A stretch of DNA of 64,000 nucleotides from Bordetella petrii (GTDB lineage Bacteria; Pseudomonadota; Gammaproteobacteria; Burkholderiales; Burkholderiaceae_B): the NCBI GenBank assembly GCA_017745595.1, contig WMBV01000011.1, forward strand, positions 1-64,000, read 5' to 3'. How positions within the stretch are numbered: the first letter of the stretch is position 1; every line of letters starts with the position of its first letter. Both the position numbers and the translations under genes were made by a program. This document shows positions 5,120 to 26,977 of this stretch, in pieces. Below the pieces are notes generated by a model that saw nothing but the letters and a program-made list of their open reading frames with translations, ran no database searches and was not told the DNA's origin.

Positions 5120-5174
5120 ACTGTAACGAGCCACCCCTAACTACAGTCTGTCAGAAAGATTACTTTTTTGTAAT
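5120..5174 (-). promoter_or_regulatory. metal-regulon promoter of the cupredoxin-copA-copB operon
   Basis: On the minus strand a perfect inverted repeat ATTAC-A6-GTAAT (5159-5174, overlapping the copS stop) is followed after 15 nt by TAGTTA, then 12 nt, then a -10-like TACAGT (5120-5125). The start codon is 36 bases further on. The same spacing recurs at eight other promoters in the window. Binding by CopR is inferred. Confidence 0.65.
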
Positions 5175-6542
5175 GTCCTGATCGCGTTGAATTGTAAAAC
5201 CCACTTCTGAACCGTGATTATCCGATTTCGCAAACGCGGCACCGCCATGCATCCGGGCAATTGCGCTAACGATTGCGAGCCCCAAGCCGTGTCCGTCTGC
5301 CCGTCCACTGCGAGCGTCATCCGCGCGAAAGAATCTATCGAAGATTCTGGGTAGCGCATCCCGGTGAATCGGTGTCCCTGGATTCCTGAGGCTGATTTCG
5401 ACGAACTGATCGTCTTGTGCGCAACGAGCAAGTATCGTCTGACCATTTGGCGTAGCTTTTATCGCATTGCTCACGAGATTTGCAATGGCTCGTCTTAACA
5501 AGCGTGAGTTTGCGTGTACTTGCACATTTCCATCAACCACTAAGCGCACCCCGGCCTCTTCCAAAGCCGCCTCGTAGTATTCAACCACCTGATCTATCTC
5601 ATCGCGAACCATCACGGGCCGGAGGTCGCGGGCAGTCTCGCCACCATCGGCACGCGCGAGAAACAGCATGTCGTTAATGAGCGCCTTCAGGCCGTGAAGC
5701 TCCTCCAGGTTGGATGCCATCACATCGCGCAATTCCTCAATGGAACGCTCCGAAGAAAGAGTAACTTCTGTCCCGTTGATCAACGTGGCCAGCGGGGTGC
5801 GCAATTCATGCGCTACGTCAGCGTTGAACCCCTCCATCTGCTGATAAGCAGCCTGGACACGTGCCAACATTTTGTTGAACGTGTGCGTGAATTCTCTCAA
5901 TTCACGATCGATCCCACCCTCTGGCAACCGCACCTTTAAATTATCAGGCCCGATCTGGGCCGCGCGGGCGGACAGCCGACGGATAGGGGCAAGGGATCGT
6001 CGAACCGCCCAAGCTGACAGTATCACCGTCACACCTATCCAAATGATGCATATCAGCACTAAAGCTGTAGCGAAGGCATAAAGGAACTCCGCACTGGGAC
6101 GCACATTGACAGCGACAAGGAGCTGACCTTGCGGAAAGAGCTTTCCGTCAAGGGCAGCCTGCATTCCGCGCATATGCAATCCATCTTGCGTTTGAAGAGA
6201 CACTTCGCCATCGGAAAATACTCGAGTGATCTGCGGTGCCTCGGCACCGTAGAAAACTTCACCATTGGGCCGTATGATCCACACCCGGAGATTGGTGTGC
6301 CCGACGAGAATACCGTCAAGCGTCTGACGCAAGCCATCGTACTGCGACGGCTCCGTCTGCATATCCACCATGTGGTCGATAAGCTCGAGCTTTCCCGAAA
6401 CTTCCGTCATCTCCTGGCGTTGAACCTCACGCTTTAACGCCAGGAACAATGTGCAGCCTGCCACCGTGGACACCACGAGCGCAATCAAACCTAACAAAAG
6501 AGTGAGGCGGACCTGAATAGAATTCGTTGGAAGTAACCTCAT
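5160..6542 (-). CDS. copS: heavy-metal sensor histidine kinase (CopS/CusS type)
   Basis: A 460-residue inner-membrane kinase that senses periplasmic metal and phosphorylates CopR. Membrane segments lie at about 11-36 and 155-180 with a periplasmic sensor between them. A HAMP linker follows, then the H-box [13 protein letters not shown] with His245, and a C-terminal ATPase domain with N-box ([10 protein letters not shown]), F-box ([10 protein letters not shown]) and G-box ([18 protein letters not shown]). The start overlaps the copR stop by four bases, so the pair is translationally coupled. The 3' end overlaps the copper-operon box. Confidence 0.93.
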
Positions 6543-7213
6543 TCACCGCGTTCCTCTAACACATAACCCATACCACGTACCGTATGCAAAAGCCTCCTGT
6601 CAAAAGGGTCGTCGATCTTAGCTCGCAAGCGTCGCACAGCGACTTCAATCGCATTCGTGTCGCTATCGAAGTTCATATCCCAAACTTGTTCAGCCAACAT
6701 CGTTCTGGACAGAACTTGCCCCTGCCGGCGCAATAAAAGCGCAAGCAGCGTGAACTCCTTCGCCGTCAAGTCCAGTCGCATACCCGCGCGATGCGCCTTT
6801 CGCCGAGCAAGGTCCAACTCGAGATCGCCCAGTTTAAGCAGCGTTGATTCCTGGCCGCGGCCTCGCCGAAGCAATGCCTGGATACGCGCCAGTAACTCAG
6901 AAAACGCAAACGGCTTCACCAAATAATCGTCAGCTCCGTTCTCAAGGCCCCGCACCCTATCCTCCACTTTGTCTCGCGCAGTGAGCATGAGAACGGGAGT
7001 GTCCTTGGTTTCACGCAAGTCCTTCAGAATCCAAAATCCGTCGATTCCTGGCAGCATGACATCGAGCACGACGAGATCGTAATTGCCCTCCAGGGCGGCG
7101 TGCCGGCCGTCGACTCCGTTGCTTGCGATGTCCACGACGTAGTTATGTTCCGTCAAACCCTTTTGCAGATAGTGTGCCAGCTTACGCTCGTCTTCGATGA
7201 CCAGAATTCGCAT
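6539..7213 (-). CDS. copR: OmpR-family copper response regulator (CopR/CusR type)
   Basis: A 224-residue two-component regulator: receiver domain with phosphoacceptor Asp51 (VVLDVMLPG) and Lys near 101 ([11 protein letters not shown]), then a winged-helix DNA-binding domain ending in [11 protein letters not shown]...RGMGYVLEE. It is expected to bind inverted-repeat copper boxes and activate the adjacent operon. First gene of copRS. Its start is preceded by AGGAGG. It is closely similar to the regulators at 22117 and 24409, so the three may share target sites. Confidence 0.93.
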
Positions 7214-7229
7214 AACGAACCTCCTATTC

Positions 7230-7284
7230 CTTGCATAAATGTAATCAGCTAGTCCGATTCATGTCAGTACCAGACACGTAAAGT
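7230..7284 (+). promoter_or_regulatory. metal-regulon promoter of the DUF4148 gene at 7338
   Basis: Plus-strand box CTTGC-ATAAAT-GTAAT (7230-7245; right arm perfect, left arm degenerate), 15 nt, ATGTCA, 12 nt, and a -10-like TAAAGT (7279-7284). It lies between copR and the DUF4148 gene and reads toward the latter. Confidence 0.55.
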
Positions 7285-7337
7285 TTGAGATGTCGCCCCA
7301 ACCCCAATTGGGTCATCTGATTCGAACGGAACCATTC

Positions 7338-7691
7338 ATGCTAAATCGAAAATCACTGCTTACCGTTGCCGTCGCTGGCAGCCTGCTCGCCCCCGCAATC
7401 TCGAATGCGTCGCAGACATTCGAAACTACCAACGACGAGATTGGTCTTGTCACGCATTATGCACCGACTTCAGTCACCCGCGAGCAGGTTCTTCAAGACC
7501 TTGCCATGTGGAAAGCTCAACCCATTGCCAGCGACGGATGGCGAGAGACCGACAGCGACCAAGCGTGGCAAGCGCCGACGTCCGTTAATCGCCATACGTC
7601 TCACCAACCCCTTACGACTGCCAGTCAGGAACACGAACGTTGGCGCGTGGTTGATGGAGAAGCCGGCTGGATTGGCCCGTTCGGGGTTTGA
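7338..7691 (+). CDS. small exported protein with a DUF4148-like segment
   Basis: A 117-residue protein with a signal peptide (MLNRKSLLTVAVAGSLLAPA, cleaved near NAS). A short DUF4148-like helix follows, SVTREQVLQDLAMWKAQP, and then a Trp-rich tail. DUF4148 proteins are small periplasmic proteins of Burkholderiales with unknown function. ATG 7338 puts the signal peptide at the N-terminus; the ribosome site is weak (GGA eight bases upstream). It is divergent from copR and has the regulon promoter 54 bases upstream, suggesting metal induction. A weak GGGG/CCCC hairpin with T6 just after the stop may be its terminator. Confidence 0.65.
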   Translation: MLNRKSLLTVAVAGSLLAPAISNASQTFETTNDEIGLVTHYAPTSVTREQVLQDLAMWKAQPIASDGWRETDSDQAWQAPTSVNRHTSHQPLTTASQEHERWRVVDGEAGWIGPFGV

Positions 7692-7877
7692 CGTTCATCC
7701 CCTTTTTTCAGGTCGGTACGTAGAACCTGAACATGGCATCCGCTATAGCCCCTTCTCATAGTTGATGCTCTGATCTCGTCGATGCATATGCGGCCATTTC
7801 CTGCGCTGCAGGGAGCAGATCGTCCCATGCATCTACGCGTCGCACCACACACTTGTAGATCCTTGTAGGAGATTTAT

Positions 7878-8261
7878 ATGAAACGCATTTCGTGCGCCAT
7901 TGTCGCAGCAGCTATTTCTTTCGGTGCGATTGGCATCGTTCATGCTGAGACCAAGACTCGCGCCCAAGTCCGTGCCGAGCTGCAGGAAGCGAAAGCTAAA
8001 GGTCTGGTTACGTATGGAGAGCAGGAATACCCGGCGCCCGCCGTGTACACCAGCGGCAAAACCAGTGAGCAGGTGAAAGATGAACTGCAACAGGCTAGAG
8101 CCGCCGGCTTGATCACTGACGGTGAGCAACAGTACCCGCCGCAAGTTCCCGTCAGCAGCAGCAAGACGCGCTCACAGGTGCTCGCAGAACTGAAGGATGC
8201 TAAGGCTGCGGGCCTGGTTTCCTATGGCGACTTGGATTACCCGCCTACGCTCACCAACTGA
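7878..8261 (+). CDS. DUF4148 protein with three tandem repeats
   Basis: A 127-residue exported protein: signal peptide to about residue 24 (ending GIVHA), then three copies of a unit of about 35 residues. Each begins K-T-R/S-x-Q-V-x-x-E-L, continues with A-K/R-A-x-G-L-V/I, and ends G-x-x-x-Y-P-P. A single unit is the usual size of a DUF4148 domain, so this is a triplicated version. Start ATG with GTAGGAG seven bases upstream. Function unknown; periplasmic location inferred. It sits in the metal island, but I found no regulon box in front of it. Confidence 0.8.
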   Translation: MKRISCAIVAAAISFGAIGIVHAETKTRAQVRAELQEAKAKGLVTYGEQEYPAPAVYTSGKTSEQVKDELQQARAAGLITDGEQQYPPQVPVSSSKTRSQVLAELKDAKAAGLVSYGDLDYPPTLTN

Positions 8262-8379
8262 CCCACAACACCTCGGACTCCTGATTGTCCAATTTGCCTT
8301 AATGGGCTTAGCAAGCCTCAGGCGCTGAATCAGCATTCGCGCCTGGCACTCCCCTCCACGCGTTGCATGAAGAGAATGC

Positions 8380-9492
8380 ATGAAGATCCTATACACCAAC
8401 TTCCATAGGGCTGACGGAGGAGGGCACACAACATACATCATCTCTTTAGTGAGGGCATTGAAAGAAGCACATGAAATCGTAGTTTCCGCTCCATTGACAA
8501 GCCGTCTGCATCAGACGCTACTGTCGCTCTCCGATGTTAGGGTAGTCAATCATGACTTTCGAGGTGGGTTGCTGAAATGCGTACGCGATGCGCGCCGCTT
8601 CAGAGCATTCCTGCGTAGCGAGCGATTCGACATCGTTCATGTCAATGGTTCCGCAGACCATCGACTGTGCATGTTGGCGGTCGCAGGAATGGGTGTCGAT
8701 CGGCCCGCAATTGTCTATACGCAGCACAACGACAGAGACGTCAATCGATTAGGCACACTCATCCGAGCGCGTTTCGGTACCACGCGCGTGATTTGCGTGT
8801 GCGCCCACAGTAGACGAAAACTGGAACAAAGCCCATTCAACCGATGCGGACTTACTACTGTTTACAACGGCGTCGACGTTGACCGATTCTCCCCCCCGCC
8901 CGCCTCTGACGTCAGGCACTATCGCAAACGCTGGATCGAGCCGCGACGGTCTGGCCGTTTGGTGGTTGGAAGCAATGCCGGCACGGCTGATTACAAGCGT
9001 TGGCTCGATATGGTAGAGGGTGCGGCATTATTGCCGAAGCATCTTCGCGATCAGATTATAATTTTGATCGCCGGCGTACCGCCCTCGGAAGACCAAGTAT
9101 CCAAAGTCGAACAACTCGGCATGATGGACCATGTAATCTTCGTCGGCCTGCTCGACGACGTTCGACCATTCATTGCAACACTGGACGTCGGGTTCGTACT
9201 TTCATCGGAGGTCGAGACCATATCGTTCGCCTGTCGCGAGATGATGGCAATGGGCGTTCCCGTTATCGTCAGTGATTCGGGTGGACTTTCGGAAAACGTG
9301 GAACCTTACTGTGATGGCTGGGTGGTTCCTGCGTGCAATCCGCGTTCCGTTTCACTTGCCATAGCGAGCATCTTGACGAACCGCCAAAGCCTGATTCCCA
9401 TGCGGCATGCTGCGAGAAAGAAGGCAGTCTCCGAATTCTCACTTACACGGTTTGTGTCCGACACACAAGATGTATACCTAGCAACAAAGTAG
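8380..9492 (+). CDS. family 4 glycosyltransferase (GT-B fold)
   Basis: A 370-residue glycosyltransferase. The N-terminus MKILYTNFHRADGGGHTTYI is the typical acceptor-side glycine loop of GT4 enzymes. The C-terminal half has the nucleotide-sugar site with E-x7-E (ETISFACRE) followed by GVPVIVSDSGGLSE. No membrane helix or signal peptide, so it is cytosolic or peripheral. The substrate cannot be read from sequence; the neighbouring lipid A modification genes suggest a cell-envelope glycan. ATG 8380 has GAAGAGA upstream. It stands alone between the DUF4148 gene and a long non-coding stretch. Confidence 0.8.
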   Translation: MKILYTNFHRADGGGHTTYIISLVRALKEAHEIVVSAPLTSRLHQTLLSLSDVRVVNHDFRGGLLKCVRDARRFRAFLRSERFDIVHVNGSADHRLCMLAVAGMGVDRPAIVYTQHNDRDVNRLGTLIRARFGTTRVICVCAHSRRKLEQSPFNRCGLTTVYNGVDVDRFSPPPASDVRHYRKRWIEPRRSGRLVVGSNAGTADYKRWLDMVEGAALLPKHLRDQIIILIAGVPPSEDQVSKVEQLGMMDHVIFVGLLDDVRPFIATLDVGFVLSSEVETISFACREMMAMGVPVIVSDSGGLSENVEPYCDGWVVPACNPRSVSLAIASILTNRQSLIPMRHAARKKAVSEFSLTRFVSDTQDVYLATK

Positions 9493-9869
9493 GAAACTCA
9501 TTCCATCCAGCACGGGTTGGAACTTGCTCGCTTATGCGGTGATAGGGAGACCAGCGGCTCAAGATAGCGCTGTTCGACTTTTTTTATAGAAAGTCTTCTG
9601 CTTGCGGCAACGTCGTCAGCAATCGGTCTTGAACTTCTTCAACTAGTGACAAGCCGGTACCGATCCAGACACGCCACACAAACAGTCTCTTGTGATCGTC
9701 AGAAATGCGCACGGCTCCCATGTCCATTCATTGGATCTGTATCGTGTGTTCTTTAGCGCCCTAGCCTAGCTGGATACGGTGGAATCACGCTGGTCGCCAC
9801 ACATCGTCAACGATCACTGCATCACACCAAAAGCCGTAGTGTCAGCACGTTGAATTCCGACGATTTCAA
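9493..9869. other. non-coding stretch after the glycosyltransferase
   Basis: About 380 bases with no gene, tRNA or repeat that I can support. It leads into the orphan regulon promoter at 9870. It is richer in A+T than the later parts of the window. Confidence 0.5.
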
Positions 9870-9924
9870 TACAAAAAAGTAATTCCATCGTACGCATTTT
9901 GACAGAGAATGTCTCATAAAATTC
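9870..9924 (+). promoter_or_regulatory. orphan metal-regulon promoter with no gene behind it
   Basis: Box AATAC-A6-GTAAT (9870-9885), 15 nt, TTGACA (9901-9906), 12 nt, TAAAAT (9919-9924). The layout is identical to the czcR promoter at 21997-22051. No open reading frame of credible size follows before the terminator at 10129. Confidence 0.6.
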
Positions 9925-9930
9925 CGATGT

Positions 9931-10165
9931 CAATATGCACTGCTTATCATGTTCCCCGGCATAAGAAACGTTCTACCGACGCAGCCGATGAGTAGCCGCT
10001 CTGCCAATGGAGTGCGACAGGGCTTGCAAGCATTCTAGTAACCTGCCGACAACGCAGCAGCTAGAGTGTGTCACTGCAGTCATACTGAGCGTGACCTCTA
10101 TCCTCCGCGAAGGGATGAGGTGTTTCGCACCGCGCATACTGCGTACACAGTATGCGCGGTTTTTC
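9931..10165 (+). ncRNA. candidate metal-induced small RNA, about 230 nt
   Basis: Inferred transcript between the orphan promoter (-10 at 9919-9924) and the perfect hairpin terminator (10129-10165). Only very short reading frames start inside it (9 to 22 codons) and none has a ribosome site; one frame starting mid-way runs through the terminator and is not credible. An internal hairpin CCTC-TATCC / GGGAT-GAGG precedes the terminator. I recognise no RNA family. The existence of the transcript is an inference from the two flanking signals. Confidence 0.4.
10129..10165 (+). terminator. strong rho-independent terminator
   Basis: Perfect 13-bp stem: left arm 10129-10141 (ACCGCGCATACTG), 6-nt loop, right arm 10148-10160 (CAGTATGCGCGGT), then a run of five T ending at 10164. 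The T run is only on the plus strand, so it ends a plus-strand transcript. The nearest upstream gene ends more than 600 bases earlier. Confidence 0.85.
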
Positions 10166-10287
10166 TTCGCACATGCATGGTGAATCCTATTGAAAGTACG
10201 CACGAACGTTCTTCTTGACAGTGTCACGGATTATCTCTTCGCGCTTCTCAACGGCTGCGTGAACCAAGCTTCCAGGCCTGCAGATTG

Positions 10288-10342
10288 CAGACTAAAACGT
10301 AATCTCGTTGTTGGCATTTAGCAAGGGTCGATCCAATAGAAT
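10288..10342 (+). promoter_or_regulatory. metal-regulon promoter of the DUF4148 gene at 10425
   Basis: Box CAGAC-TAAAAC-GTAAT (10288-10303), 15 nt, TAGCAA, 12 nt, TAGAAT (10337-10342). Right arm and -10 are good, middle hexamer poor. Confidence 0.5.
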
Positions 10343-10424
10343 TTGTTGTACAGCTATTTGATTTTTGAAAGACATCTTGCCGCGCTTAAATGCTCTGCTT
10401 GAGTCGGAACGTAAGGAGTTTCTC

Positions 10425-10721
10425 GTGAAGAATTTTTTGAAGTATCTACCCCTGGGACTGGCGTTGATTTCTATGCAATCGGCCATCGCAGGTTCAGCAT
10501 CGACGTCGGAGAAATCCGCATTCGCACAAGATGCAGAACTCTCCCGTGCAGAGGTGCAGGCCGATTTGGCTATCTGGAAGCGAGCTGGCATGGACAAGTT
10601 CTGGCGAGGGAATCAGACTCCAAACACATTCAGCCGGGAATACCGAATGGCTCAGGCCGAATATCAACGGATGCGAAATGGCACGGAGTATCAGCAGGAA
10701 CTACAACGTCGGACACAATGA
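10425..10721 (+). CDS. DUF4148 family small exported protein
   Basis: A 98-residue protein: signal peptide (about 1-23, ending SAIAG), then the motif LSRAEVQADLAIWKRAGMDK and a conserved tail SREYRMAQAEYQRMRNG. It is a clear paralogue of the protein at 27056. The start is taken as GTG 10425 because AAGGAG lies seven bases upstream and gives a proper signal peptide; an in-frame ATG at 10365 would add 20 residues without a ribosome site. A UUCG-capped terminator follows at 10779. Function unknown; metal induction is inferred from the promoter. Confidence 0.8.
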   Translation: MKNFLKYLPLGLALISMQSAIAGSASTSEKSAFAQDAELSRAEVQADLAIWKRAGMDKFWRGNQTPNTFSREYRMAQAEYQRMRNGTEYQQELQRRTQ

Positions 10722-10778
10722 GGCTCCTACCGCGCTTGATACGAACTGCCTTTCGCAGACTGAGTATCTCGCAATTGC

Positions 10779-10804
10779 ATGCCACTTCGGTGGCATATTT
10801 TTTT
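10779..10804 (+). terminator. rho-independent terminator with a TTCG loop
   Basis: Stem ATGCCAC (10779-10785), loop TTCG, stem GTGGCAT (10790-10796), then A and seven T. It closes the DUF4148 transcript. Confidence 0.85.
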
Positions 10805-10878
10805 GCTAGCTGTTGTCGCCAGCACAGGGAGCATTACAATCTTTCTTCCTTTCCGTTAACTTTCTCAACTTCATTCGA

Positions 10879-11490: not shown

Positions 11491-11669
11491 TATCAAGATA
11501 TTCGGTGACAGATATCACCGACGATTTAGATACCGTGCGCCACTGTACTCCGCCATGACGAATCTAACGATCTCGAGAGAGTAGATAACAAGAACCCCGT
11601 AGGCAGAAGAATGGGGTCCATAGACTCAGCTCCATTAACGAATCGGCCGCTTTGCTATTCTCACCCCGC

Positions 11670-12431: not shown

Positions 12432-12482
12432 AACACGCTTCCAACATCGTTCTTCACCTTGCTCAGCACTAACGAGGCGGCC

Positions 12483-12878: not shown

Positions 12879-12933
12879 CCCTCACTCCTACTGTATCCCT
12901 CGTCTCTGTGCACCGACACCCGAGCAAACGACT

Positions 12934-14391
12934 TTATCGACTGGCTGTTTTACGCAGCTCATAGAGGACAAAGCGCCGACTGGAATATCGAGATTTTGCA
13001 ACAACTCCAGGTGAGGCCAGTAGCGGCCAGGATTTATCACGGGAAACTGCCACCCACAACCGACCGGATGGGCTAAATGGCGGCAAAGTGGATGCTTGCC
13101 AGGGAAGCAATTTCGCTTTGCCTTGCGAGTAATATCGCGCAGAGAAAGGTCTCGAGCCTACAAAATAGAGCGTGTCGCCGGGCTGCTGCAGCTTCTCAAC
13201 CATTGCGACGAGGCCCTTCTCTGTCTTGAAGCGTGGTTCGTCGAGAATACCTAGTGTGCCGATCACAACAGCAGCGATGGGGACAAGCAGCGACGCTGCG
13301 AATACGAAAGAGTTCGCAAGTCTCTGGTTCCGGGTCAGTTCTACACTTGAGAGCCAACAGCCAAGGCCTAGAGCCAGCGGCGGCAGGCTTGGCAAGACAT
13401 ATGTCCATAAGATGTTGCCGGAAAAAGTAAAAAGGACCGGGGCTACTAATGCCCACGACACTAGTAGCTTGACTATGGGTTCACGTAGAGCGGCTTGAGC
13501 AGCCTGGCGTAGACTGGATTTCAGTGGCAGCACCAGTAGGCCGGTCACGAGCAACAGACTCCACGGTGCTGAAGCCGCAATCCAATCTAACCAAATTGCT
13601 CCCCATGCGCGAGCGTGGGCGGTGCCGTATCGATCACCTGCCCAACCCGCGTCGACGAAGCGAAGGAAATGCTCGCCCACGAGGAAGTACTTCAGAAATC
13701 CAGGCGTCTTGAGTTCTGCGATGACATACCATGGCAGTGAAATAGCGAGCATCAATGCAAGCCCTACCGACCACGGTAGAGCCTTTAATGCCTTTCGGCC
13801 TTCACGCGCCCATAACGCCCAAGCCAAACTCGCGCCTCCAATCAATACCAGAGCAAGCGGGCCTTTGGCCAACAGACCGATCGAAAGACCAATGAAGAAT
13901 CCATAGCGCCAGAATGCAGTGGGGCAAAAGGGAGCCACCATTAGTGCAAGCATCGATAGTGTCACGCCCAAAGTGAGAAACGGGTCCGTGAGAACGGCGC
14001 CGGCGCTCACAAATGGCAGAAGCATCGCAGCCAGCATTAGCACAGCCCATCGCGCCTGCTGCAAGCCGAAGACTCTTCGTGCAGCCACATAGACGAGGCG
14101 CGCAACCAGTAGCATGACTAGCAAGGACGGTAGGCGTACCGCGAACTCGCTCAATCCGAGTAATTTGATGCTCAGGGCCTGAGCCCAAAAGGCTAGAGGA
14201 GGTTTTCCCCAAAAGGGCTCCCCCGGTTCAAACCAGGGGGTGACCCAGTCTCCCGAGACGGCCATTATCCTCGCAATCTCTGCATAGCGCGGCTCTGACG
14301 TGTCAATCAGTGGAAGCGTTGCCATGGCAAACAAACGGACCCCCAATACAACCACGACGGCAATTAAGAGAGACTTACTACTTATTCTCAC
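12934..14391 (-). CDS. lgmB: ArnT-type lipid A glycosyltransferase, LgmB-like
   Basis: A 485-residue membrane glycosyltransferase of the ArnT/PMT (GT83/GT39) type with about a dozen helices. The N-terminal periplasmic loop carries DTSEPRYAEIARIM and WVTPWFEPGEPFWGKPPL, hallmarks of ArnT. It is expected to transfer an amino sugar from undecaprenyl phosphate to lipid A phosphates; the Bordetella homologue LgmB adds glucosamine. GTG 14391 is preferred over ATG 14457: GGAG lies seven bases upstream and the overlap with lgmA is then 14 bases, giving coupled translation. The C-terminal domain is shorter than in enterobacterial ArnT. Confidence 0.85.
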   Translation of the reverse strand: MRISSKSLLIAVVVVLGVRLFAMATLPLIDTSEPRYAEIARIMAVSGDWVTPWFEPGEPFWGKPPLAFWAQALSIKLLGLSEFAVRLPSLLVMLLVARLVYVAARRVFGLQQARWAVLMLAAMLLPFVSAGAVLTDPFLTLGVTLSMLALMVAPFCPTAFWRYGFFIGLSIGLLAKGPLALVLIGGASLAWALWAREGRKALKALPWSVGLALMLAISLPWYVIAELKTPGFLKYFLVGEHFLRFVDAGWAGDRYGTAHARAWGAIWLDWIAASAPWSLLLVTGLLVLPLKSSLRQAAQAALREPIVKLLVSWALVAPVLFTFSGNILWTYVLPSLPPLALGLGCWLSSVELTRNQRLANSFVFAASLLVPIAAVVIGTLGILDEPRFKTEKGLVAMVEKLQQPGDTLYFVGSRPFSARYYSQGKAKLLPWQASTLPPFSPSGRLWVAVSRDKSWPLLASPGVVAKSRYSSRRFVLYELRKTASR

Positions 14392-15415
14392 CGACTTGCT
14401 CCGCCGACGAATCTCCAGGTACAGGCGCTTCGGTTGATTCGATGATCTCCCGTACAAGATAGACGGGACGTTGTTTTGATTCCATGTATGTTTTTCCCAG
14501 ATATTCGCCCAACAGGCCGATAGTCAGCAACTGAATGCCGCTAAGTAATGTGATCATCGCCATTAGGGACGGATAACCGGGCACTGAGTCGCCAAAAATC
14601 AGTGTCTTGAGCACTATCGCAAGACCAAATCCCCCCCCGAGCAATGCAATTACGGCGCCGATTGCAGTGGCCCAACGCAGCGGTGTCGTCGAAAACGAGG
14701 TGATACCCTCCATCGCCAAGCCAAACAGGGCAAAGTAATTCCATTTGGTGGTACCGGCCGCTCGAGGTGCTCGATCGTAGTCGATGACGGTCGTTGGCAT
14801 GCCCACCCATGCATATAGACCTTTCATATATCGGCATCGCTCTGGAAGCCTAAGCATGGCATTGACAGTACGCCGACTCATCAATCGGAAATCACCAGTA
14901 TCGGCCGGAATTTTTGAATGGCTAAGACGGCTAAGTAGGCGATAGAAGGCGTATGCCGAGAGCTTTTTGGCCCATCCTTCTCCTTGTCGAGATCGACGAC
15001 GCATGCATACTACGTCGGCGCCAGCTCGCCAAGCAGCAACCATGGCCGGAATCAGTTCAGGGGGATCTTGTAGGTCGGCGTCCAACACGATCACTGCGGC
15101 ACCACGAGCATGCACCAAACCAGCCGACATCGCGGCTTCTTTGCCGAAGTTGCGGCTCAGGCACACAATGCGCACTGCGGAATTTTGCCGGGCCACTGCG
15201 CGGAGAAACGCGACGCTATCGTCAGTGCTACCGTCATCGACGAAGATGATTTCGTATGGGTACCCCTGGCTTTGCAGCAAAGGTTGCAATCGATTCAGAC
15301 ACAGGGGAAGAACTTCTTGCTCATTAAAGAAAGGAATAATGATGGAAAGGCAGTCACTTTGAGCTGCCGAGGCGACTGGTTTCACGGGTGGTTGGTAGGC
15401 AGCTAGAGCGTGCAT
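14378..15415 (-). CDS. lgmA: family 2 glycosyltransferase (GtrB/ArnC/LgmA-like)
   Basis: A 345-residue polyisoprenyl-phosphate glycosyltransferase. The GT2 domain (about 20-240) has IIIPFFNEQEVLP, the DDGSTDDS turn and VLDADLQDPPELIP (DxD-type site). Two C-terminal helices (about 245-310) hold it to the inner membrane. In the Lgm pathway this enzyme makes undecaprenyl-phosphate-N-acetylglucosamine. It heads the minus-strand lgmA-lgmB operon behind a regulon-type promoter (-10 at 15443-15448), which suggests metal control of lipid A modification. The family is certain, the exact sugar is inferred. Confidence 0.85.
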   Translation of the reverse strand: MHALAAYQPPVKPVASAAQSDCLSIIIPFFNEQEVLPLCLNRLQPLLQSQGYPYEIIFVDDGSTDDSVAFLRAVARQNSAVRIVCLSRNFGKEAAMSAGLVHARGAAVIVLDADLQDPPELIPAMVAAWRAGADVVCMRRRSRQGEGWAKKLSAYAFYRLLSRLSHSKIPADTGDFRLMSRRTVNAMLRLPERCRYMKGLYAWVGMPTTVIDYDRAPRAAGTTKWNYFALFGLAMEGITSFSTTPLRWATAIGAVIALLGGGFGLAIVLKTLIFGDSVPGYPSLMAMITLLSGIQLLTIGLLGEYLGKTYMESKQRPVYLVREIIESTEAPVPGDSSAEQVGENK

Positions 15416-15442
15416 GAAATCGACCTAGTAATACGATGCATC

Positions 15443-15497
15443 ACTCTAGCCGCTGACCCACGACAACACGCAGACGACTACATTACATTTTGGTCAG
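15443..15497 (-). promoter_or_regulatory. metal-regulon promoter of lgmA-lgmB
   Basis: Minus strand: box CTGAC-CAAAAT-GTAAT (15482-15497), 15 nt, TTGTCG (15461-15466), 12 nt, TAGAGT (15443-15448). The ATG is 27 bases downstream of the -10. Same geometry as the copper and czc promoters. Confidence 0.55.
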
Positions 15498-19186: not shown

Positions 19187-19188
19187 GC

Positions 19189-20352: not shown

Positions 20353-20586
20353 TTCCGGTCTCCGATGCAGTTATGCAACCTTGAGTTGTGTGTTCATACA
20401 AAATCGGCGCTGGAGTTAAAAAGCGCCTTCTGTTCATTGCTTTATTCATCAGCATGCACGTCGACCTTATTCCTTGCTCGTTATCGAGAAGAACAGGCAA
20501 CTGCGGCGACCTCGTGGCGAATGACATCGCCACGGCATATTTTGGAAACGAAAAATCAGGGTGGCGATACATATGAGGCGCTGCAC
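20353..20586. other. 234-bp gap between czcC and czcB
   Basis: Unusually long for the inside of an RND operon. A 77-codon minus-strand frame fills it and overlaps the czcB start, but has no signal peptide, no family resemblance and no ribosome site. I see no convincing terminator. It could hold an internal promoter for czcBA. Confidence 0.4.
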
Positions 20587-21834
20587 TTAGTAGCCAATGA
20601 GGCGATCTATTTCCGCCCGGGCGAGGAACGCTTCACTGAGGGCGGTTAGGTAGGATATGTTTCCCTGGGTAAGTGCGCGCTGTGCATCGAGAACTTCCAG
20701 ATAGCTCATTTTCCCGGCTGCAAACCCTTTTCGTGCAGCTTCATATGCCCTTTGCGCCCCTGGTAGTACTGCATTTCGATATTGCTGCGCAGAGGAAGCA
20801 GCTAGATCGTATTTTGATGCGGCTTGAATCAACGATGAATTTAGACGTGCCTCGAGATCACGATATACATCTTGAGCTTTATATGAGCGCATGGATGCCG
20901 CATAAACGTTGCCCTGATTGCGATCGAAGAGCGGCAAAGGAATGGAAATGCCAAGCTGCCCGCGATTACGCCCCATTTCATTGTCGCGAGCAACCCCTAC
21001 GCTGACAGTGATGTCAGGATAGCGCTTGCTTTTTTCTACTTCGAGTTCGGCTCGACTGAGTTCCAGAGCGGTGCGTCCCGACGCTAAAAGGGGAGATTTA
21101 TCGAGCGATGCCTTTAACTCGTCTAATGAAGGCCGGGGTGGCAGGGATTCCAGACTGGCTGCAACACCCTCGAAATCGGGTTGACTCTCACCCCAAGTGA
21201 GCGCAAGAGCGCGCCGAGCATTTGCCAATGTATTCAATGCGGCTTGTTCCGCTAAACCGCTATTACTTAGCTCGACTTCAGCCCGCGTCTTTTCCAGGGG
21301 AACCGCTTTTCCGGACTCAACCCGAGCAGTAGCGACACGTAGCGCACCTTGCGCAATGTCTCTGGTCTCGCGCGCTACGCGTACATTTTCCTGGGCAATT
21401 GCCACTTCGAAGAATGCTGCCGACACCGATGCACGCAAGCTAGAGCGTGTGGCCTCTAAATCCAATTGAGATATATCTCCTGCCAATCGAGCAGCCTGTT
21501 GTCGAGCTCCGCGTTTTCCTCCCAGTTCGATCGGTACGTTGAGCATCGTTGTGGTCGTTCGTGTAGCTCGTCGTTGGTCCTCTACGTTCACGTCCAAACT
21601 CGGATTGGGCATTACTCCCGCTTGGGTAATGAGGCCGTCGGCTGCCCGAGCTTCATTCCGTGCGGCAGATAACATCGGATTCCGCGTCAATGCCTTGTCG
21701 ATCGCTTCTTGCAACGTGATGACGTCATTGGAATTAGTCGCTGCGCCTGGATCAGCACTAGATGCCAAGACCGAGGCCGACAGGGCATAGAGACATACGC
21801 CTGCTATGAGGAACGGTAGACGTGGCAAACGCAT
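20587..21834 (-). CDS. czcC: CzcC-type outer-membrane efflux protein
   Basis: A 415-residue TolC-like outer-membrane channel. A signal peptide (to about residue 25) is followed by two long coiled-coil repeats of the OEP family: ITLQEAIDKALTRNPMLSAA early on, and GISIPLPLFDRNQGNVYAA marking the start of the second half. ATG 21834 is preferred (AAGG seven bases upstream, and it begins the signal peptide); an upstream frame to 21876 adds 14 residues. First gene of czcCBA-DUF190, divergent from the czcRS pair; the perfect box at 21997-22012 lies between them and may act in both directions. Confidence 0.92.
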   Translation of the reverse strand: MRLPRLPFLIAGVCLYALSASVLASSADPGAATNSNDVITLQEAIDKALTRNPMLSAARNEARAADGLITQAGVMPNPSLDVNVEDQRRATRTTTTMLNVPIELGGKRGARQQAARLAGDISQLDLEATRSSLRASVSAAFFEVAIAQENVRVARETRDIAQGALRVATARVESGKAVPLEKTRAEVELSNSGLAEQAALNTLANARRALALTWGESQPDFEGVAASLESLPPRPSLDELKASLDKSPLLASGRTALELSRAELEVEKSKRYPDITVSVGVARDNEMGRNRGQLGISIPLPLFDRNQGNVYAASMRSYKAQDVYRDLEARLNSSLIQAASKYDLAASSAQQYRNAVLPGAQRAYEAARKGFAAGKMSYLEVLDAQRALTQGNISYLTALSEAFLARAEIDRLIGY

Positions 21835-21996
21835 TTTTGAACCTTGAAGAACGCCTTGGCGACGCAATATTGGCACGTAGTAGCGACGCCGCTACCGACG
21901 AAAATATAGATGGCTGGTACTGTATCGAAGTGGTCCCGACAAAATAGCGACGCCAAGATGACAAATTTGCAAACTATTCAGGCCGAAGACCATCTA

Positions 21997-22051
21997 ATTA
22001 CTGATTAGTAATTTGGTTGTTCGTCATTTGACGTCAATATGTTCGTAAAAT
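21997..22051 (+). promoter_or_regulatory. metal-regulon promoter of czcRS, palindromic box
   Basis: Perfect inverted repeat ATTAC-TGATTA-GTAAT (21997-22012), 15 nt, TTGACG (22028-22033), 12 nt, TAAAAT (22046-22051). Being fully symmetrical it could also serve the divergent czcC, but the matching elements on that side are weak (CTGAAT and TGTCAT). Confidence 0.65.
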
Positions 22052-22116
22052 GCCAGCTATTGCAGGCAAATCCTTATTTTTTGTAATTAGCACCTCCGGA
22101 ATCAAGGGTGGGAAAA

Positions 22117-22806
22117 TTGAAAATATTGGTCATTGAGGACGAGCGAAAGCTCGCGGAATATCTCAAGCGCGCGCTTTCCGAACATAACTACGTCGTCGAT
22201 ATTGCAATGGATGGTATTAGCGGACTTCATCTAGCCCAGGAGACGCAGTACGACTTGATTCTTCTAGACGTAATGTTGCCTGGACGAGATGGCTTTTCGG
22301 TATTGGCGGAATTGCGAAAAGGCGATCGGGTCCCTATCCTGATGCTTACCGCACGCGACAAGCTGGAGGATCGTGTTCGAGGGCTGCAAGATGGTGCTGA
22401 CGACTACCTGGTAAAACCTTTCGCGCTTTCAGAATTATTGGCACGCGTGCTTGCGCTGAGTCGACGCCAGAGTAACTCAGTTATCGAGCCGAACCGCCAA
22501 AATGTGCTAAAGGTCGGCGATCTGGAGCTCGATCTGTTACGCCGCAGGGCGTCGCGTGGAGGCGTGCGCCTTGATCTCACGGCCAAGGAGTTCACCTTGC
22601 TGGCACTGTTAATGAAGAAACAGGGCCAAGTCTTGTCACGCTTAGACCTGGCGGAGCAAGTGTGGGACATTAACTTCAACAGTAATACGAATGTAGTCGA
22701 AGTGGCAGTACGCCGACTGCGCGGCAAGGTTGATGACCCTTTTCCAACAAAACTCCTCCATACAGTACGCGGTATGGGATACGTACTTGAACCACGGGAA
22801 ATTTGA
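22117..22806 (+). CDS. czcR: OmpR-family metal response regulator (CzcR/CopR type)
   Basis: A 229-residue regulator with receiver Asp (LILLDVMLPGRDG) and Lys (LVKPFALSELL) followed by a winged-helix domain (RRLRGKVDDPF...RGMGYVLEP). I place the start at TTG 22117: this gives the family N-terminus [16 protein letters not shown], matching CopR at 7213 exactly, and AAGGGTGGG lies just upstream. A GTG at 22108 would add three residues. It is followed by its kinase with overlapping TGATG and is divergent from czcC. Confidence 0.92.
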   Translation: MKILVIEDERKLAEYLKRALSEHNYVVDIAMDGISGLHLAQETQYDLILLDVMLPGRDGFSVLAELRKGDRVPILMLTARDKLEDRVRGLQDGADDYLVKPFALSELLARVLALSRRQSNSVIEPNRQNVLKVGDLELDLLRRRASRGGVRLDLTAKEFTLLALLMKKQGQVLSRLDLAEQVWDINFNSNTNVVEVAVRRLRGKVDDPFPTKLLHTVRGMGYVLEPREI

Positions 22807-24152
22807 TGGCGATTCGTCCTAGAAGATCGTTAAGACGATGGCTATCGTGGTGGCTGGTGCTTCAAACATTTGCCGCCTTAGGTCTGGTATGCATAGTTGT
22901 ATATGGTTCCGTGTACCTAAACCTTTTGGCTCGGCAGGAGACCTTGCTTGAGCAAAAGAAGGGGGTAATCGTTCACCTAGTAGACGAGTTTGCTTCTTTT
23001 GGTGATTTCTCCCATTTGGAGCACAAATTAACGGATTTTTTCTATGGCAAATCTGAATTTAGTCTTCGGCTGAAAATCAATGGCAAGCTCATGACCTATG
23101 GTGAGCATGAGCCGGCATTGAGTCCCAGAGATATTAAGCAGACGACCTTCACGCTTACCATGCCTCAGCAGCCTGGAGTGCAAATGGAGGCAGAGCTCCT
23201 GTTAGACATATCACCCGACATACAACTCCTAACCATACTGGCGTGGACCCTATTCGCCTGCGCGCTTGGCGGCGCGTTGCTTGTCTCGATGATTGGAGAT
23301 GTACTGGTTCGCCGAGCCTTGTTTCCGCTTCATGATGTTGGGCGGCAAGCTGAGATGCTATCGCCACACAGAATTGGTGAGCGTCTTGATGAAAGCGGTC
23401 TTGCCGAAGAACTGCAGCCGCTAGTGCGGCAGTTCAACCAAGTACTACAGCGTGTTGAGCGAGCGTATGTCCAAATGGAAGGCTTCAATGCGGATGTGGC
23501 TCACGAGCTACGTACCCCGTTGGCAACACTGATTGGCGAAACGGAGTTGGCGTTATCAACGCGGATGTCACGGACCGGGCTTCAAGAGACTTTGGGCTCA
23601 AACTTGGAAGAGTTACAGCGCATGTCGGGTATCGTTAACGATATGCTCTTTCTATCACAGGCGGATCGTGGCGCAGCCGCGCGCACAACTCGGGTGTGCA
23701 ACCTGCGCGAGCTCGTATACGAAGTACTCGCTTATCATGAAGCAGAAGCTTTTGAGGCAAAAGTATCTTTCATGGTTGTCGGAGACAAGTCTGCGGCTGT
23801 CGACAGAACGCTATTCCAGCGGGCGGTTTCGAATCTTGTCTCCAACGCGGTGCGCTTTGCCCTCCCAGATACCCAAATTCAGGTTCGCATCGAGGAGAGG
23901 GACGAAGGACAAATGGGGGTCACTGTAAGAAATATCGGTGATCCAATCAGTACAGAGCATTTGCCTCGCCTCTTTCACCGCTTCTATCGGCTGGACTCGT
24001 CCCGGGCCAGCAACGCTATGCATCATGGACTCGGCTTGGCCATTGTAGCTGCGATAGCTCGAATGCATGGAGGGCAGACCTATGCGAGTTCCGACCATAT
24101 CTCGACAACTATTGGTTTCAGCATAGACGGAAGCAGATCGATGGATGCCTAG
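22806..24152 (+). CDS. czcS: heavy-metal sensor histidine kinase (CzcS type)
   Basis: A 448-residue membrane kinase: helices at about 14-37 and 140-163 around a periplasmic sensor, then HAMP. The H-box is [17 protein letters not shown] with His233; the ATPase domain has NLVSNAVRFA, LFHRFYRLD and [17 protein letters not shown]. Start ATG 22806 overlaps the czcR stop. It is similar to CopS in the catalytic half but has a different periplasmic part, consistent with a different metal. Confidence 0.92.
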   Translation: MAIRPRRSLRRWLSWWLVLQTFAALGLVCIVVYGSVYLNLLARQETLLEQKKGVIVHLVDEFASFGDFSHLEHKLTDFFYGKSEFSLRLKINGKLMTYGEHEPALSPRDIKQTTFTLTMPQQPGVQMEAELLLDISPDIQLLTILAWTLFACALGGALLVSMIGDVLVRRALFPLHDVGRQAEMLSPHRIGERLDESGLAEELQPLVRQFNQVLQRVERAYVQMEGFNADVAHELRTPLATLIGETELALSTRMSRTGLQETLGSNLEELQRMSGIVNDMLFLSQADRGAAARTTRVCNLRELVYEVLAYHEAEAFEAKVSFMVVGDKSAAVDRTLFQRAVSNLVSNAVRFALPDTQIQVRIEERDEGQMGVTVRNIGDPISTEHLPRLFHRFYRLDSSRASNAMHHGLGLAIVAAIARMHGGQTYASSDHISTTIGFSIDGSRSMDA

Positions 24153-24205
24153 CGACCCTTTTCACCTACAACATTGCAGGGACATTACATTTTTCGCTGC
24201 ACTAC

Positions 24206-24260
24206 TTTTCATATTCGTAATACGTTTGTCCGCTTATTGACGTAGCTAGGCAGCTAAAGT
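24206..24260 (+). promoter_or_regulatory. metal-regulon promoter of the orphan response regulator
   Basis: Box TTTTC-ATATTC-GTAAT (24206-24221, left arm degenerate), 15 nt, TTGACG (24237-24242), 12 nt, TAAAGT (24255-24260). The gene starts about 150 bases further on, leaving a long leader. Confidence 0.5.
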
Positions 24261-24408
24261 CTTCTCTGTTGATCAATAGTGCAAGTACGAACCCCAGTGC
24301 GTTGTGATCGCTTGCTCCATGGTCTTTGAATTTTCGACCTCCAGATAACGCCCATGTGTGGCGAAAATCCCTCAAAAAGGTGCATGGTGGGGCTATTCAG
24401 ATCTACTG

Positions 24409-25095
24409 ATGAAGATACTTATTATCGATGACGAGAGGAAGCTGGCAGAGACTGTCAGGCGTAGCCTGACAGGGAACGGCTACCTCGCTGATATAGCATT
24501 GGACGGCGCAAGCGGATTACAGCTTGCATATGAAATGCAGTACGACTTGATTATTTTGGACATTAATCTCCCCGACATGGAAGGATTTGAGGTCCTGCAA
24601 CGAATCCGGCAAAGTGATGCTGTCCCAGTCATGATGCTAACCGCACGAACGAGCTTGGAAGATCGAGTCAGGGGCTTAGAACAAGGTGCAGACGATTACC
24701 TCGCGAAACCATTTGCTCTTTCTGAATTGCAGGCAAGGGTTCAGGCTCTTCGCCGCCGTGGAAGCGGCAACGAGAGCAGACGGGGACCGAACGTGCTTCG
24801 CGTCGCAGATTTGGAACTTGATTTACTGAGGCGCCGCGTCGTGCGTGGCAACGCACGCATCGACTTGACCGCCAAGGAATTCAATTTGCTGACGATTCTT
24901 ATGCGCCGTCAAGGCGAAGTTGTCTCACGCTTGGTATTGGCCGAGCACGTATGGGATATGAACTTCAATAGCAATACAAACGTCGTGGAAGTAGCGGTCC
25001 GTCGACTGCGCTCTAAGATTGATGACCCATTCGATGCGAAGTTGCTGCACACGATTCGTGGAATGGGCTATTTGATCGAGTACCGGCCCGATTGA
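24409..25095 (+). CDS. orphan OmpR-family response regulator (third CopR/CzcR paralogue)
   Basis: A 228-residue regulator with the receiver motif LIILDINLPDMEG, Lys in LAKPFALSELQ and the same winged-helix end as its two paralogues (RRLRSKIDDPF). ATG 24409 gives MKILIIDDERKLAETV; a longer frame from GTG 24358 adds 17 unrelated residues. No kinase gene accompanies it: the next gene is a convergent porin. It probably takes phosphate from CopS or CzcS, or arose by duplication of czcR. A short AATGCC/GGCATT hairpin with T4 lies right at its stop. Confidence 0.88.
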   Translation: MKILIIDDERKLAETVRRSLTGNGYLADIALDGASGLQLAYEMQYDLIILDINLPDMEGFEVLQRIRQSDAVPVMMLTARTSLEDRVRGLEQGADDYLAKPFALSELQARVQALRRRGSGNESRRGPNVLRVADLELDLLRRRVVRGNARIDLTAKEFNLLTILMRRQGEVVSRLVLAEHVWDMNFNSNTNVVEVAVRRLRSKIDDPFDAKLLHTIRGMGYLIEYRPD

Positions 25096-25323
25096 ATGCC
25101 CAGAAGGCATTTTCTGAACGGTTCCCCGTGCGCCCAGCCACGCACCGATCTTGCCAATTTCGACGGAAGCGCTTGCCTGGCTCGAAAGCCCAATCTGGCC
25201 TCCGAAGCTCATGATCGCGGCTAAGAACCATGGCGAGAAAATTGGCCGGAGGAAGCTCATAATTGCTTCGCCCCGGCCATTGAAGGGAGCGGCGTGCTGT
25301 ACTCCTCACCGCTCCACTTGACC
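25096..25323. other. gap between convergent regulator and porin genes
   Basis: No gene. A short hairpin with T4 touches the regulator stop (25095-25114). A 7-bp stem GGAGCGG/CCGCTCC (25286-25315, 16-nt loop) lies behind the porin stop. Both may be weak terminators. Confidence 0.45.
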
Positions 25324-26481
25324 TTAGAATACGTGTCGCAAACCGATAATCGCTTCAGTTGCTTTAGCGTCGCTTTGGAACGCGAAATTCTTCGTATACG
25401 ACCCGGCTGCGTATATGTTAGTCCGCTTTGACAACTTGTAGGAATAGCCCAATGCAAACGTATTGCTCGTCGAATCCCCGCCGGTCAGATCACTATTGTT
25501 CGGATCAACACGCTGCCACGAGCCGAACATGCTGCTGGCCCCGCCCAGCGGAACCGCAACACCGAGCAGGTACGAGTTCGTACTGAATCCATCAACGAAG
25601 GCATTCGATGGTGTTCCTTGGAAGCCATTGATGTTTGCGCCGGACGGGAGCCCCTTTCCGGCGAACCAACCGTCTGTTGCGCGCTCATAGGCAGCAATTA
25701 ACTTCAAGACTTCGAAATCATATGCTGCGCCGACAGTAAATGAACGTGGCGTGGCACTTGTTTGTGCATTGCTGAGTTTGTTGGAGGCATTCAGCTGTTC
25801 GTATGCAATAAATGCAAGAAGGGGGCCATTGTTGTAGCTCAAGCCACTGGTGATGGCTCGAGTATTGTCTGCCGTAGCAAAGCCAGATTGAGCCGCCGAA
25901 AGATCGTTGGCATTGAAGGAGTACCCTGCCGATAGGCGAAAACCGCCAAACGACGGGCTTTCATACAACGCCAGATTGTCATAGCGAACAAAACTCGATC
26001 CGCTGAAGCCAAGGCCGGCTCCCATATTCAACTGAGTAAATCCGCCAAATTGAGTGCCGAATAGGCTGATCATCATGCGGCTCGCGACGTTGTATTGGCG
26101 GCCGAGGCGCACTTCTCCCCAATCGGCGCTTCCCAGACCTACAGTGGCTTCACGACCGAACAGGCGACCGCCTTGGCTAGATTCGCCGTTGGTCGAATCG
26201 AAGCCAGACTCGAGTCGAAACGTAGCATAGAGCCCATCCCCCAGGTCCTCTTTGCCACGCAAGCCCCAACGTGAACCCGCAGTCTGGCCAGTTGTAGCAC
26301 CGATCCTGCTTGCGTTCACATCAGCCTTGGCGCCCGTATTGGGATTCGTATAGGAACCGTCGACCTTGGCATATCCGATACCAGTGTCGATGAGGCCATA
26401 AAGGGTTACCGATGTCTCGGCGTGCACGGCGGCAGCCGAGAAGGTAGCTGCGGAAGCAGCCAAGAGAATAGTTTTTTTCAC
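25324..26481 (-). CDS. Burkholderiales-type general porin (OmpC/Omp32 family)
   Basis: A 385-residue outer-membrane trimeric porin. The signal peptide (MKKTILLAASAATFSAAAVHA) is followed by SVTLYGLIDTGIGY, the eyelet-type loop region (RLGRQYNVASRM) and a C-terminal LRHVF with the terminal phenylalanine needed for outer-membrane insertion. It is the same family as Bordetella and Acidovorax porins. It has a regulon-type promoter on the minus strand (26598-26652), so its expression may change under metal stress. A chromosomal origin or capture by the island are both possible. Confidence 0.93.
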   Translation of the reverse strand: MKKTILLAASAATFSAAAVHAETSVTLYGLIDTGIGYAKVDGSYTNPNTGAKADVNASRIGATTGQTAGSRWGLRGKEDLGDGLYATFRLESGFDSTNGESSQGGRLFGREATVGLGSADWGEVRLGRQYNVASRMMISLFGTQFGGFTQLNMGAGLGFSGSSFVRYDNLALYESPSFGGFRLSAGYSFNANDLSAAQSGFATADNTRAITSGLSYNNGPLLAFIAYEQLNASNKLSNAQTSATPRSFTVGAAYDFEVLKLIAAYERATDGWFAGKGLPSGANINGFQGTPSNAFVDGFSTNSYLLGVAVPLGGASSMFGSWQRVDPNNSDLTGGDSTSNTFALGYSYKLSKRTNIYAAGSYTKNFAFQSDAKATEAIIGLRHVF

Positions 26482-26597
26482 AATTGCTCCTTATGTGGAA
26501 TCGAACTGCATGCCAGGCCGACAGAAGAAGCGATCAATAAGGGGCTTGTGCGTAGTTCACGACGAGGTTGCCCGATCTGCCGACGTTAGCTATCGCC

Positions 26598-26652
26598 AGT
26601 TTGGATAGCGGCAATCGACAAATAGCGAACTAAAAAATTACATTTTTGTTCT
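26598..26652 (-). promoter_or_regulatory. possible metal-regulon promoter of the porin
   Basis: Minus strand: AGAAC-AAAAAT-GTAAT (26637-26652), 15 nt, TTGTCG (26616-26621, identical to the lgmA hexamer), 12 nt, CAAACT (26598-26603). The -10 is the weakest of the set; the porin start is 116 bases downstream of it. Confidence 0.4.
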
Positions 26653-26861
26653 TATGTGGTTATGTCCGTGGAGTCGGCATTTGAAGCAACTACGTAAGTC
26701 TTTGTTTTGCATGAGCAACATCACACCATGTCAATTGACGTGTCGCCGAAACATCGGCCTCCACGCATTCTGGTTGAGATGTTCCTTTGTCGCAATTCCA
26801 CCACGATGTGGTTATTCGGTTTTGGTCGGTGCACTGGAATAGCTAGTATCCGTCTAGATAT

Positions 26862-26875
26862 GACTAGCGCTAGTC
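26862..26875. promoter_or_regulatory. 14-bp perfect palindrome
   Basis: GACTAGCGCTAGTC, fully self-complementary, in the porin-DUF4148 intergenic region about 50 bases before the regulon box at 26923. It could be a second regulator site. Confidence 0.4.
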
Positions 26876-26922
26876 GTTCATTGCATGAAGCTCTGGTTAG
26901 CCATGAAGCATGCCCGACGTAT

Positions 26923-26977
26923 ATGACAAAAAAGTAATCCTATCGTTGGGCTTTTGGCGGTGGGCGATAGGTAGACT
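26923..26977 (+). promoter_or_regulatory. metal-regulon promoter of the DUF4148 gene at 27056
   Basis: Box ATGAC-A6-GTAAT (26923-26938), 15 nt, TTGGCG (26954-26959), 12 nt, TAGACT (26972-26977). Confidence 0.55.

Follow-up and report, generated by a model that had tools for sequence, protein, structure and literature searches.

Eleven Putative Activator-Dependent Promoters of One Rigid Geometry and a Candidate Small RNA in a Metal Island of Bordetella petrii

Promoter Sites in the Window

The DNA analyzed here (the window) comprises 64,000 nucleotides of Bordetella petrii, positions 1 to 64,000 of contig WMBV01000011.1. An island at its start carries copper, czc efflux, glycosyltransferase, porin, and DUF4148 genes, together with three response regulator genes. 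Eleven sites of one geometry were found in this island. Very probably, they are the activator-dependent promoters of a heavy-metal two-component regulon, in which binding and induction are presumed for this organism from the DNA sequence. Each site spans 55 columns, numbered from the first base of a 16-bp box to the last base of the -10 element.

Site 1, 229-283 (-): box 268-283, -10 CAAAAT at 229-234; predicted to drive copC, beyond the contig end.
Site 2, 5120-5174 (-): box 5159-5174, -10 TACAGT; predicted to drive the cupredoxin-copA-copB-DUF411 operon.
Site 3, 7230-7284 (+): predicted to drive the genes at 7290-7691 and 7878-8261.
Site 4, 9868-9922 (+): box 9868-9883, -10 at 9917-9922; no conserved open reading frame 3' of it; predicted promoter of a candidate small RNA.
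Site 5, 10288-10342 (+): predicted to drive the DUF4148 gene 10365-10721.
Site 6, 15443-15497 (-): predicted to drive the gtrB-like (14378-15415) and PMT/gtrM-like (12934-14457) glycosyltransferase genes.
Site 7, 21919-21973 (-): half-box GTCAT; upstream of czcCBA; orthologous sites precede CzcC in related loci.
Site 8, 21997-22051 (+): predicted to drive response regulator 2 and kinase 2.
Site 9, 24206-24260 (+): predicted to drive response regulator 3.
Site 10, 26598-26652 (-): -10 CAAACT; predicted to drive the porin gene.
Site 11, 26923-26977 (+): predicted to drive the DUF4148 gene 27056-27361.

Among the predicted targets, copA, copB, copC, and the RND efflux genes were identified by Pfam. 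As the window begins at the contig end, the gene 3' of site 1 was identified in another copy of the island, from the same genus (L135), where Pfam assigns it to CopC. The box of site 2 overlaps the end of the histidine kinase 1 gene. Downstream of site 3, the gene 7290-7691 has a weak DUF4148 match, under the Pfam cut-off, and the gene 7878-8261 a clear one.

Nine of these promoters had been proposed in an earlier sequence-only reading of the window. All nine exist, eight of them at the positions given there; the remaining one, placed at 9870-9885 (box) and 9919-9924 (-10), fits at the site 4 coordinates listed above. Two sites were missed, those before copC (229-283 (-)) and czcCBA (21919-21973 (-)). 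The GTAAT half of the box, taken as invariant in that reading, is not strictly so, because the czcCBA site has GTCAT.

Spacing and Anatomy of the Sites

The distance between the box and the -10 element is sharply defined. In the window, GTAAT-N(k)-TANANT gave eight matches at k = 33, and the other 45 spacings in the range 15 to 60 together gave six. With (T/C)ANANT as the -10, there were ten matches at k = 33 and at most two at any other spacing. The Poisson tail of the peak at 33, calculated with an empirical background and multiplied by the 46 spacings, was about 1e-10.

Matrix scans led to the same result. A matrix of the ten GTAAT sites found 156 matches of at least 16 bits in 1.446 Mb (80 related loci, the best 80 of 224 found relatives of response regulator 2) and none in the same DNA reversed. 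A wider matrix, whose training set includes czcC sites of relatives, scored the 11 window sites at 33.8-50.8 bits, whereas five block-shuffled windows never exceeded 6.4 bits. Its only two other window matches above 8 bits (17.9 and 10.9) overlapped the palindrome of site 21997 read backwards. For site 7, the score was 44 bits with this matrix; a window-only model, built from the sequence of the ten GTAAT sites, gave it only 9.3 bits (E 0.13). In the host genome (6.10 Mb), the window-only model returned 13 matches (150 of 800 candidates scored), ten of which lie in the window. Two of the others are on contig 47, one before a copy of the RNA element described below and one before a DUF4148 gene. 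The third, on contig 33, precedes a DUF4148 gene that has CusF and RND genes next to it. The sequence-only reading had itself named such a scan as a possible refutation. Given the 13 host-genome matches and the 156 matches against none in reversed DNA, it does not refute the pattern.

Eleven columns (C5, A8, G12, T13, A15, T16, G23, G34, A51, A53, and T55) are identical in all 11 window sites, and T24 is present in ten. For a non-circular sample, sites were taken from the 80 loci by GTMAT-N33-TANANT alone, and those more than 70% alike to one another or to the window sites were removed. This yielded 116 matches, 49 of them non-redundant. In columns outside the selection, C5 was found in 49/49, G23 in 47/49, G34 in 48/49, C36 in 37/49, and T24 in 36/49. 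A spacing of 32 gave 18 matches (12 non-redundant), with C5 in 10/12, G23 in 6/12, and G34 in 7/12; spacings of 30, 31, 34, 35, and 36 gave at most two. Column 46, four bases before the -10, was T in 39 of the 49 sites.

Because G23 and G34 are conserved in 49 sites not selected on those columns, the sequence is read as a box followed by half-sites in 11-bp steps (G12, G23, and G34). The TTGAC-like hexamer of the earlier reading is the last of these three. The element is present, but it is weakly conserved as a hexamer, and only its third base (G34) is common to all 11 sites. In that reading, it was offered as a possible second regulator contact; here it appears as the last in a row of three half-sites in phase, of which the second (columns 23-24) had been overlooked.

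It is unlikely that the TTGNC half-site (columns 32-37) is instead a displaced sigma-70 -35 element, with the regulator reading the 16-bp box alone. Several sites do resemble TTGACA/TTGTCG, and classical promoters possess a -35. However, the 12-nt spacer is far from the normal 16-18, as the earlier reading had also pointed out. Moreover, conservation falls on G34 (48/49), in 11-bp phase with G12 and G23, and not on the hexamer, and E. coli cusC keeps the same distance without such an element.

With the start taken 7 nt after the -10, the box centre would lie at about -53.5, a position reportedly also occupied by CusR at cusC. Half-sites at 11-bp spacing near the -35 position, a PhoB-like class II feature, are present in the window sites. 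The E. coli phoA promoter contains two TGTCA repeats 11 bp apart, nearly at the G23/G34 position, and about 10 nt separate the end of the second repeat from the -10. We take these repeats to be PhoB half-sites. In contrast to the window sites, PhoB box promoters such as phoA belong to a different family branch and have no upstream palindrome.

Regulon Membership and Regulators

The 80 loci, other genera included, contain 142 distinct sites of at least 14 bits (161 before identical contexts were removed). The downstream genes were labeled by BLAST to the window proteins (E<=1e-3), and some DUF4148 labels rest on about 30% identity. We obtained DUF4148 for 53 sites, regulators for 15, CzcC for 14, GtrB for 8, cupredoxin for 7, GT4 for 6, porin for 3, and a kinase for 1; at 35 of the 142 sites, the downstream gene had no match to window proteins. 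In other genera, orthologs of the czc, cop, gtr, porin, and DUF4148 genes thus have the same box geometry upstream, and this tally indicates that the link of the box to porin, glycosyltransferase, and DUF4148 genes recurs across genera. The label "lipid A", given earlier to part of the set, is unsupported beyond glycosyltransferase families. The genes are GtrB/GtrM/GtrA-like, as beside cop/sil on pMOL30, and the pMOL30 gtr genes are the nearest named neighbours of the window glycosyltransferases (GtrB 53%, GtrM 31% identity).

It is highly improbable that a single promoter was recently duplicated to give the whole set, and that these are not independently maintained regulator sites. Paralogy is seen among several DUF4148 genes and between two site-bearing segments (window 9868-10342 and contig 47), but the spacers between conserved columns differ widely among the window sites, and the same columns are kept in sites of other genera with unrelated spacers, i.e., by independent conservation.

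The candidate regulators and their kinases are encoded within the same island.

Response regulator 1, 6539-7213 (-): OmpR/PhoB family, CopR-like.
Histidine kinase 1, 5160-6542 (-): weak CusS sensor-domain match, below the cut-off.
Response regulator 2, 22108-22806 (+): OmpR/PhoB family by Pfam domains.
Histidine kinase 2, 22803-24152 (+).
Response regulator 3, 24358-25095 (+): OmpR/PhoB family by Pfam domains.

Response regulator 1 is 57% identical to CusR and 61% identical to pMOL30 CopR. Response regulator 3, of the same type, lies under its own box and has no kinase gene directly beside it. Elsewhere in the host genome, one relative of response regulator 2 exceeds 50% identity (contig 55, 57%), and 13 others reach at most 45%. 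A recognition-helix region is common to the three regulators, CusR, HprR, and pMOL30 CopR. Because of this resemblance, and because the same geometry precedes orthologous genes in other genera, the earlier proposal still appears to be the best reading: at least one of the three paralogous regulators would read the shared box, which would join metal and envelope genes.

Based on these data, the following mechanism can be proposed. At least one of the three CopR/CzcR/CusR-type response regulators would be under the control of a metal-sensing kinase. A regulator dimer would recognize the 16-bp box (A/C)T(T/G)AC-N6-GT(A/C)AT, whose centre would lie about 53.5 bp before the start. The two direct half-sites (GT at 23-24 and G at 34), in 11-bp phase, may be occupied by further protomers or by the regulator together with sigma region 4. 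The last half-site would sit where PhoB-type regulators replace the -35 element, and RNA polymerase would then be seated on the TANANT -10. The predicted regulon comprises the copper oxidase genes, copC, czcCBA efflux, two regulator loci, Gtr-type glycosyltransferases, the porin, DUF4148 proteins, and a short terminator-ended RNA (site 9868). The sequence, geometry, phase, and conservation of the sites are directly observed. Binding to the box and the contribution of the first downstream repeat to activation are known from relatives and would apply here by analogy. We infer which regulator binds, the acting metal, the phosphorylation state, the use of the third half-site, and transcription itself.

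Relation to Known Systems

The following comparisons draw on portions of each cited paper. AgrR of C. metallidurans NA4 binds the 16-bp box ATKACANNNNTGTMAT, and a promoter-proximal in-phase GT repeat contributes to activation. Its bound targets include agrR, prsQ2, an OmpC-like porin, czcI2, czcL-czcR2, and copA2-copR2, and its promoters have a good -10 and no or a poor -35 (PMC7380067). The AgrR regulon and the window are alike in the box, the in-phase GT repeat, the good -10 with little or no -35, and the kinds of target, namely copper oxidase, czc, porin, and small periplasmic protein genes. They differ in that the window has a third half-site, which is not described in the portions of PMC7380067 covered, and in the small proteins, which are CopQ-like in the AgrR regulon and DUF4148 in the window. 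The pMOL30 CopQ candidate was tested as a DUF4148 relative and gave no DUF4148 match.

On pMOL30, a 37-bp motif lies about 50 bp upstream of the cop starts (PMC7563307). Its position is that of the window sites and its length equals box + 15 + 6, the comparison being one of position and length. For copA of pMOL30, the geometry predicts a start at 191,245, and the published start, validated by rapid amplification of cDNA ends, is 191,243 (PMC7563307; shared record coordinates assumed). The Pseudomonas CopR/CzcR/CusR sites, CTGACA-n5-GTAAT and GAAAC-n6-GTAAT, share the conserved GTAAT half with the window sites, and the targets of the copper and zinc regulators overlap (PMC11195947). The rigid 33-nt geometry and the third half-site are features of the window that are not discussed in the portions of that paper covered. 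E. coli cusC has the same palindrome class, the same 33-nt distance from box to -10 (TAAAGT), and GT at columns 23-24. In hprR/hiuH, the palindrome class and GT at 23-24 are again the same, with a weaker -10 candidate, TATCCT, at that position.

Several observations weigh against the reading of the sites as promoters of a heavy-metal two-component regulon. The 80 loci were collected around a response regulator and are thus enriched for such promoters. With strict filters, the window-trained model matched 11 of 121 relatives (own genome included) at E<=0.01; therefore, this exact form of the site is not a general feature of the family. Within 45 kb of pMOL30, five matches scored at least 14 bits, of which three had a downstream gene, and there was no peak in the spacing (33: 1, 32: 2, 39: 1). 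Both cusC and hprR/hiuH lack G34, so the third half-site is not universal. With the window-trained model, cusC was not reported at E<=10, and hprR/hiuH was matched over columns 2-30 only. Finally, the box of AgrR itself is centred at -43.5, 10 bp nearer the start, and that of czcI2 at -122.5, as compared with about -53.5 here, and AgrR acts unphosphorylated (PMC7380067).

As for the DUF4148 targets, a DUF4148 operon of Achromobacter sp. As-55 is induced by As(III) and Sb(III) (PMC11719878). It is a metalloid-responsive operon of the same bacterial family, and the portions of that paper covered name neither a box nor a regulator. Among the open-licence papers searched, we found no report of DUF4148 under such a box.

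Island Context

The guanine-plus-cytosine content of the island (window 1-28000) is 51-56%, and that of the next 12 kb (28001-40000) is 61-65%. A second low stretch (52-55%) spans window 42001-54000. Over a stretch of 3085 bases, two further genomes of the genus (G123 and G141), both carrying matching box sites, agree with the window at 99.97-100% identity, which suggests recent transfer. The segment 9841-11915, with the RNA, DUF4148, CDF, and YdjC, has a diverged second copy on contig 47 (L012), with 76-82% DNA identity in the aligned parts. In both copies, a GT4-type glycosyltransferase lies upstream and both metal boxes are retained.

The RNA Element under Site 4

Site 4 precedes two predicted RNA features.

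Predicted non-coding transcript, 9929-10165 (+): from site 4 to the terminator, both ends being predicted.
Conserved RNA element, 10092-10165 (+): hairpin with the CUCCGCGAAGGGA core and an intrinsic terminator (stem 10129-10160).

A 58-amino-acid frame (10007-10183) was considered as a gene and rejected. It shares with the contig-47 copy just the part inside the identical element, and because of this the transcript is treated as non-coding. Comparison of the window with that copy (L012 1135-1370) gave 40/55 identical positions in the promoter site, 82/163 in the leader, 86/87 in the segment 10085-10170, and 58/126 downstream.

A covariance model of five elements was used to search 250 family genomes. 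Matches at E<=0.01 were obtained at 27 places in 23 of them. For 19 of the 27, a same-strand box site of at least 22 bits was present within 1.5 kb upstream, as compared with none of 66 stretches (both strands of 33 unlinked loci, a non-random sample; Fisher p about 8e-14, a rough value). The 19 box-linked elements were carried after a porin gene (9), after a DUF4148 gene (6), or alone (4), the last group consisting of the contig-47 copy and a single island present in three genomes. An exact training row occurs in seven of the 19, so 12 box-linked elements are new. Among the eight elements without a box, one follows a porin gene, and seven have neither a box nor a regulon gene in the upstream stretch read.

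A second model, applied to the 80 loci and pMOL30, gave 21 matches at E<=1. Each of the best eight (E<=7e-4) is preceded by a box-driven DUF4148 gene, at a distance of 392-410 nt from the -10 of that gene. Three of the eight are training rows (Pollutimonas subterranea, Pusillimonas minor, and P. caeni). Of the five new ones, Achromobacter piechaudii has one, and two strains of Bordetella ansorpii have two each. Of the next four matches, three had no box and one had a box 1.2 kb away. In an order-wide search of 399 genomes (model R3), 27 matches at E<=0.001 were found among those listed, besides the two own elements. We treated these as chance, because none of the 27 had an upstream box in the stretch read and, in BLAST, their neighbouring upstream frames hit no window protein (such a frame was present for 22 of the 27, and two short loci were read off register). 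The 16-nt core was also seen in six viral contigs in a viral contig scan.

The core is near-invariant among 16 aligned elements and varies in the Bordetella ansorpii elements. Of 10 pairs, three showed changes on both sides; these three belong to the terminator stem, and the three core-hairpin pairs showed none. Folding of the whole 9868 transcript gave a z of -2.1. Rfam returned no match at the gathering threshold for six element loci, and three matches, all far below the gathering score, for window 9850-10300. Among the open-licence papers searched, no report of this RNA was found.

According to its sequence, the element under site 9868 is a candidate metal-induced small RNA (sRNA). The stress-regulon sRNAs CpxQ and NfeR1, of the 3' untranslated region-derived or anti-Shine-Dalgarno type, are said to combine a stress-regulon 3' end, a hairpin, a terminator, and a C/U-rich core. 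The window element resembles them in layout, the relation in sequence having been compared through Rfam alone. We tentatively propose, at just short of an even chance, that the Alcaligenaceae metal regulon contains a portable CUCCGCGAAGGGA hairpin-terminator module. This module would be kept under the box, moved among porin 3' ends, DUF4148 3' ends, and a stand-alone transcript, and act as a metal-induced sRNA, perhaps masking the ribosome-binding sites of envelope genes in response to rising copper or zinc.

Its main rival is that box-driven mRNAs carry the hairpin-terminator as a mere terminator or stability element and that the transcript is what remains of a DUF4148 or porin gene since lost. 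We consider this a serious possibility, if somewhat below even. It accounts for the position of the element after a gene in 15 of the 19 box-linked cases and in the best eight matches of the second model. The same holds for the drift of the core in the Bordetella ansorpii copies and for a core hairpin without compensatory change. In addition, the element is absent from the porin gene and the other DUF4148 genes of the window, and outside the two elements the host genome contains no perfect 11-nt complement of the CCTCCGCGAAG core (perfect pairing only). On the other hand, near-invariance of the CUCCGCGAAGGGA core in the 16 aligned elements goes beyond a terminator's needs. The two diverged copies keep 86/87 element positions as compared with 82/163 in the leader and 58/126 in the downstream flank, and the stand-alone form retains its own promoter in both. 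These points weigh against the rival.

Conclusions

The promoter set is genuine, and the regulon is of a known kind, that of the CopR/CzcR/CusR/AgrR boxes, with a sharpened architecture. Its metal promoters form a rigid comb in which a palindrome is followed by two further half-sites at 11-bp steps and a fixed -10, and the exact bases are pinpointed. Regulon prediction with this rigid pattern was very specific in the tested DNA (156 matches against none in reversed DNA), yet not sensitive on pMOL30. Through their promoters, the functionally uncharacterized DUF4148 proteins, a porin, and Gtr glycosyltransferases are linked to the metal response. The RNA embedded in the metal regulon would be a surprising and new part of it; as yet unproven, it offers a candidate metal-induced small RNA.

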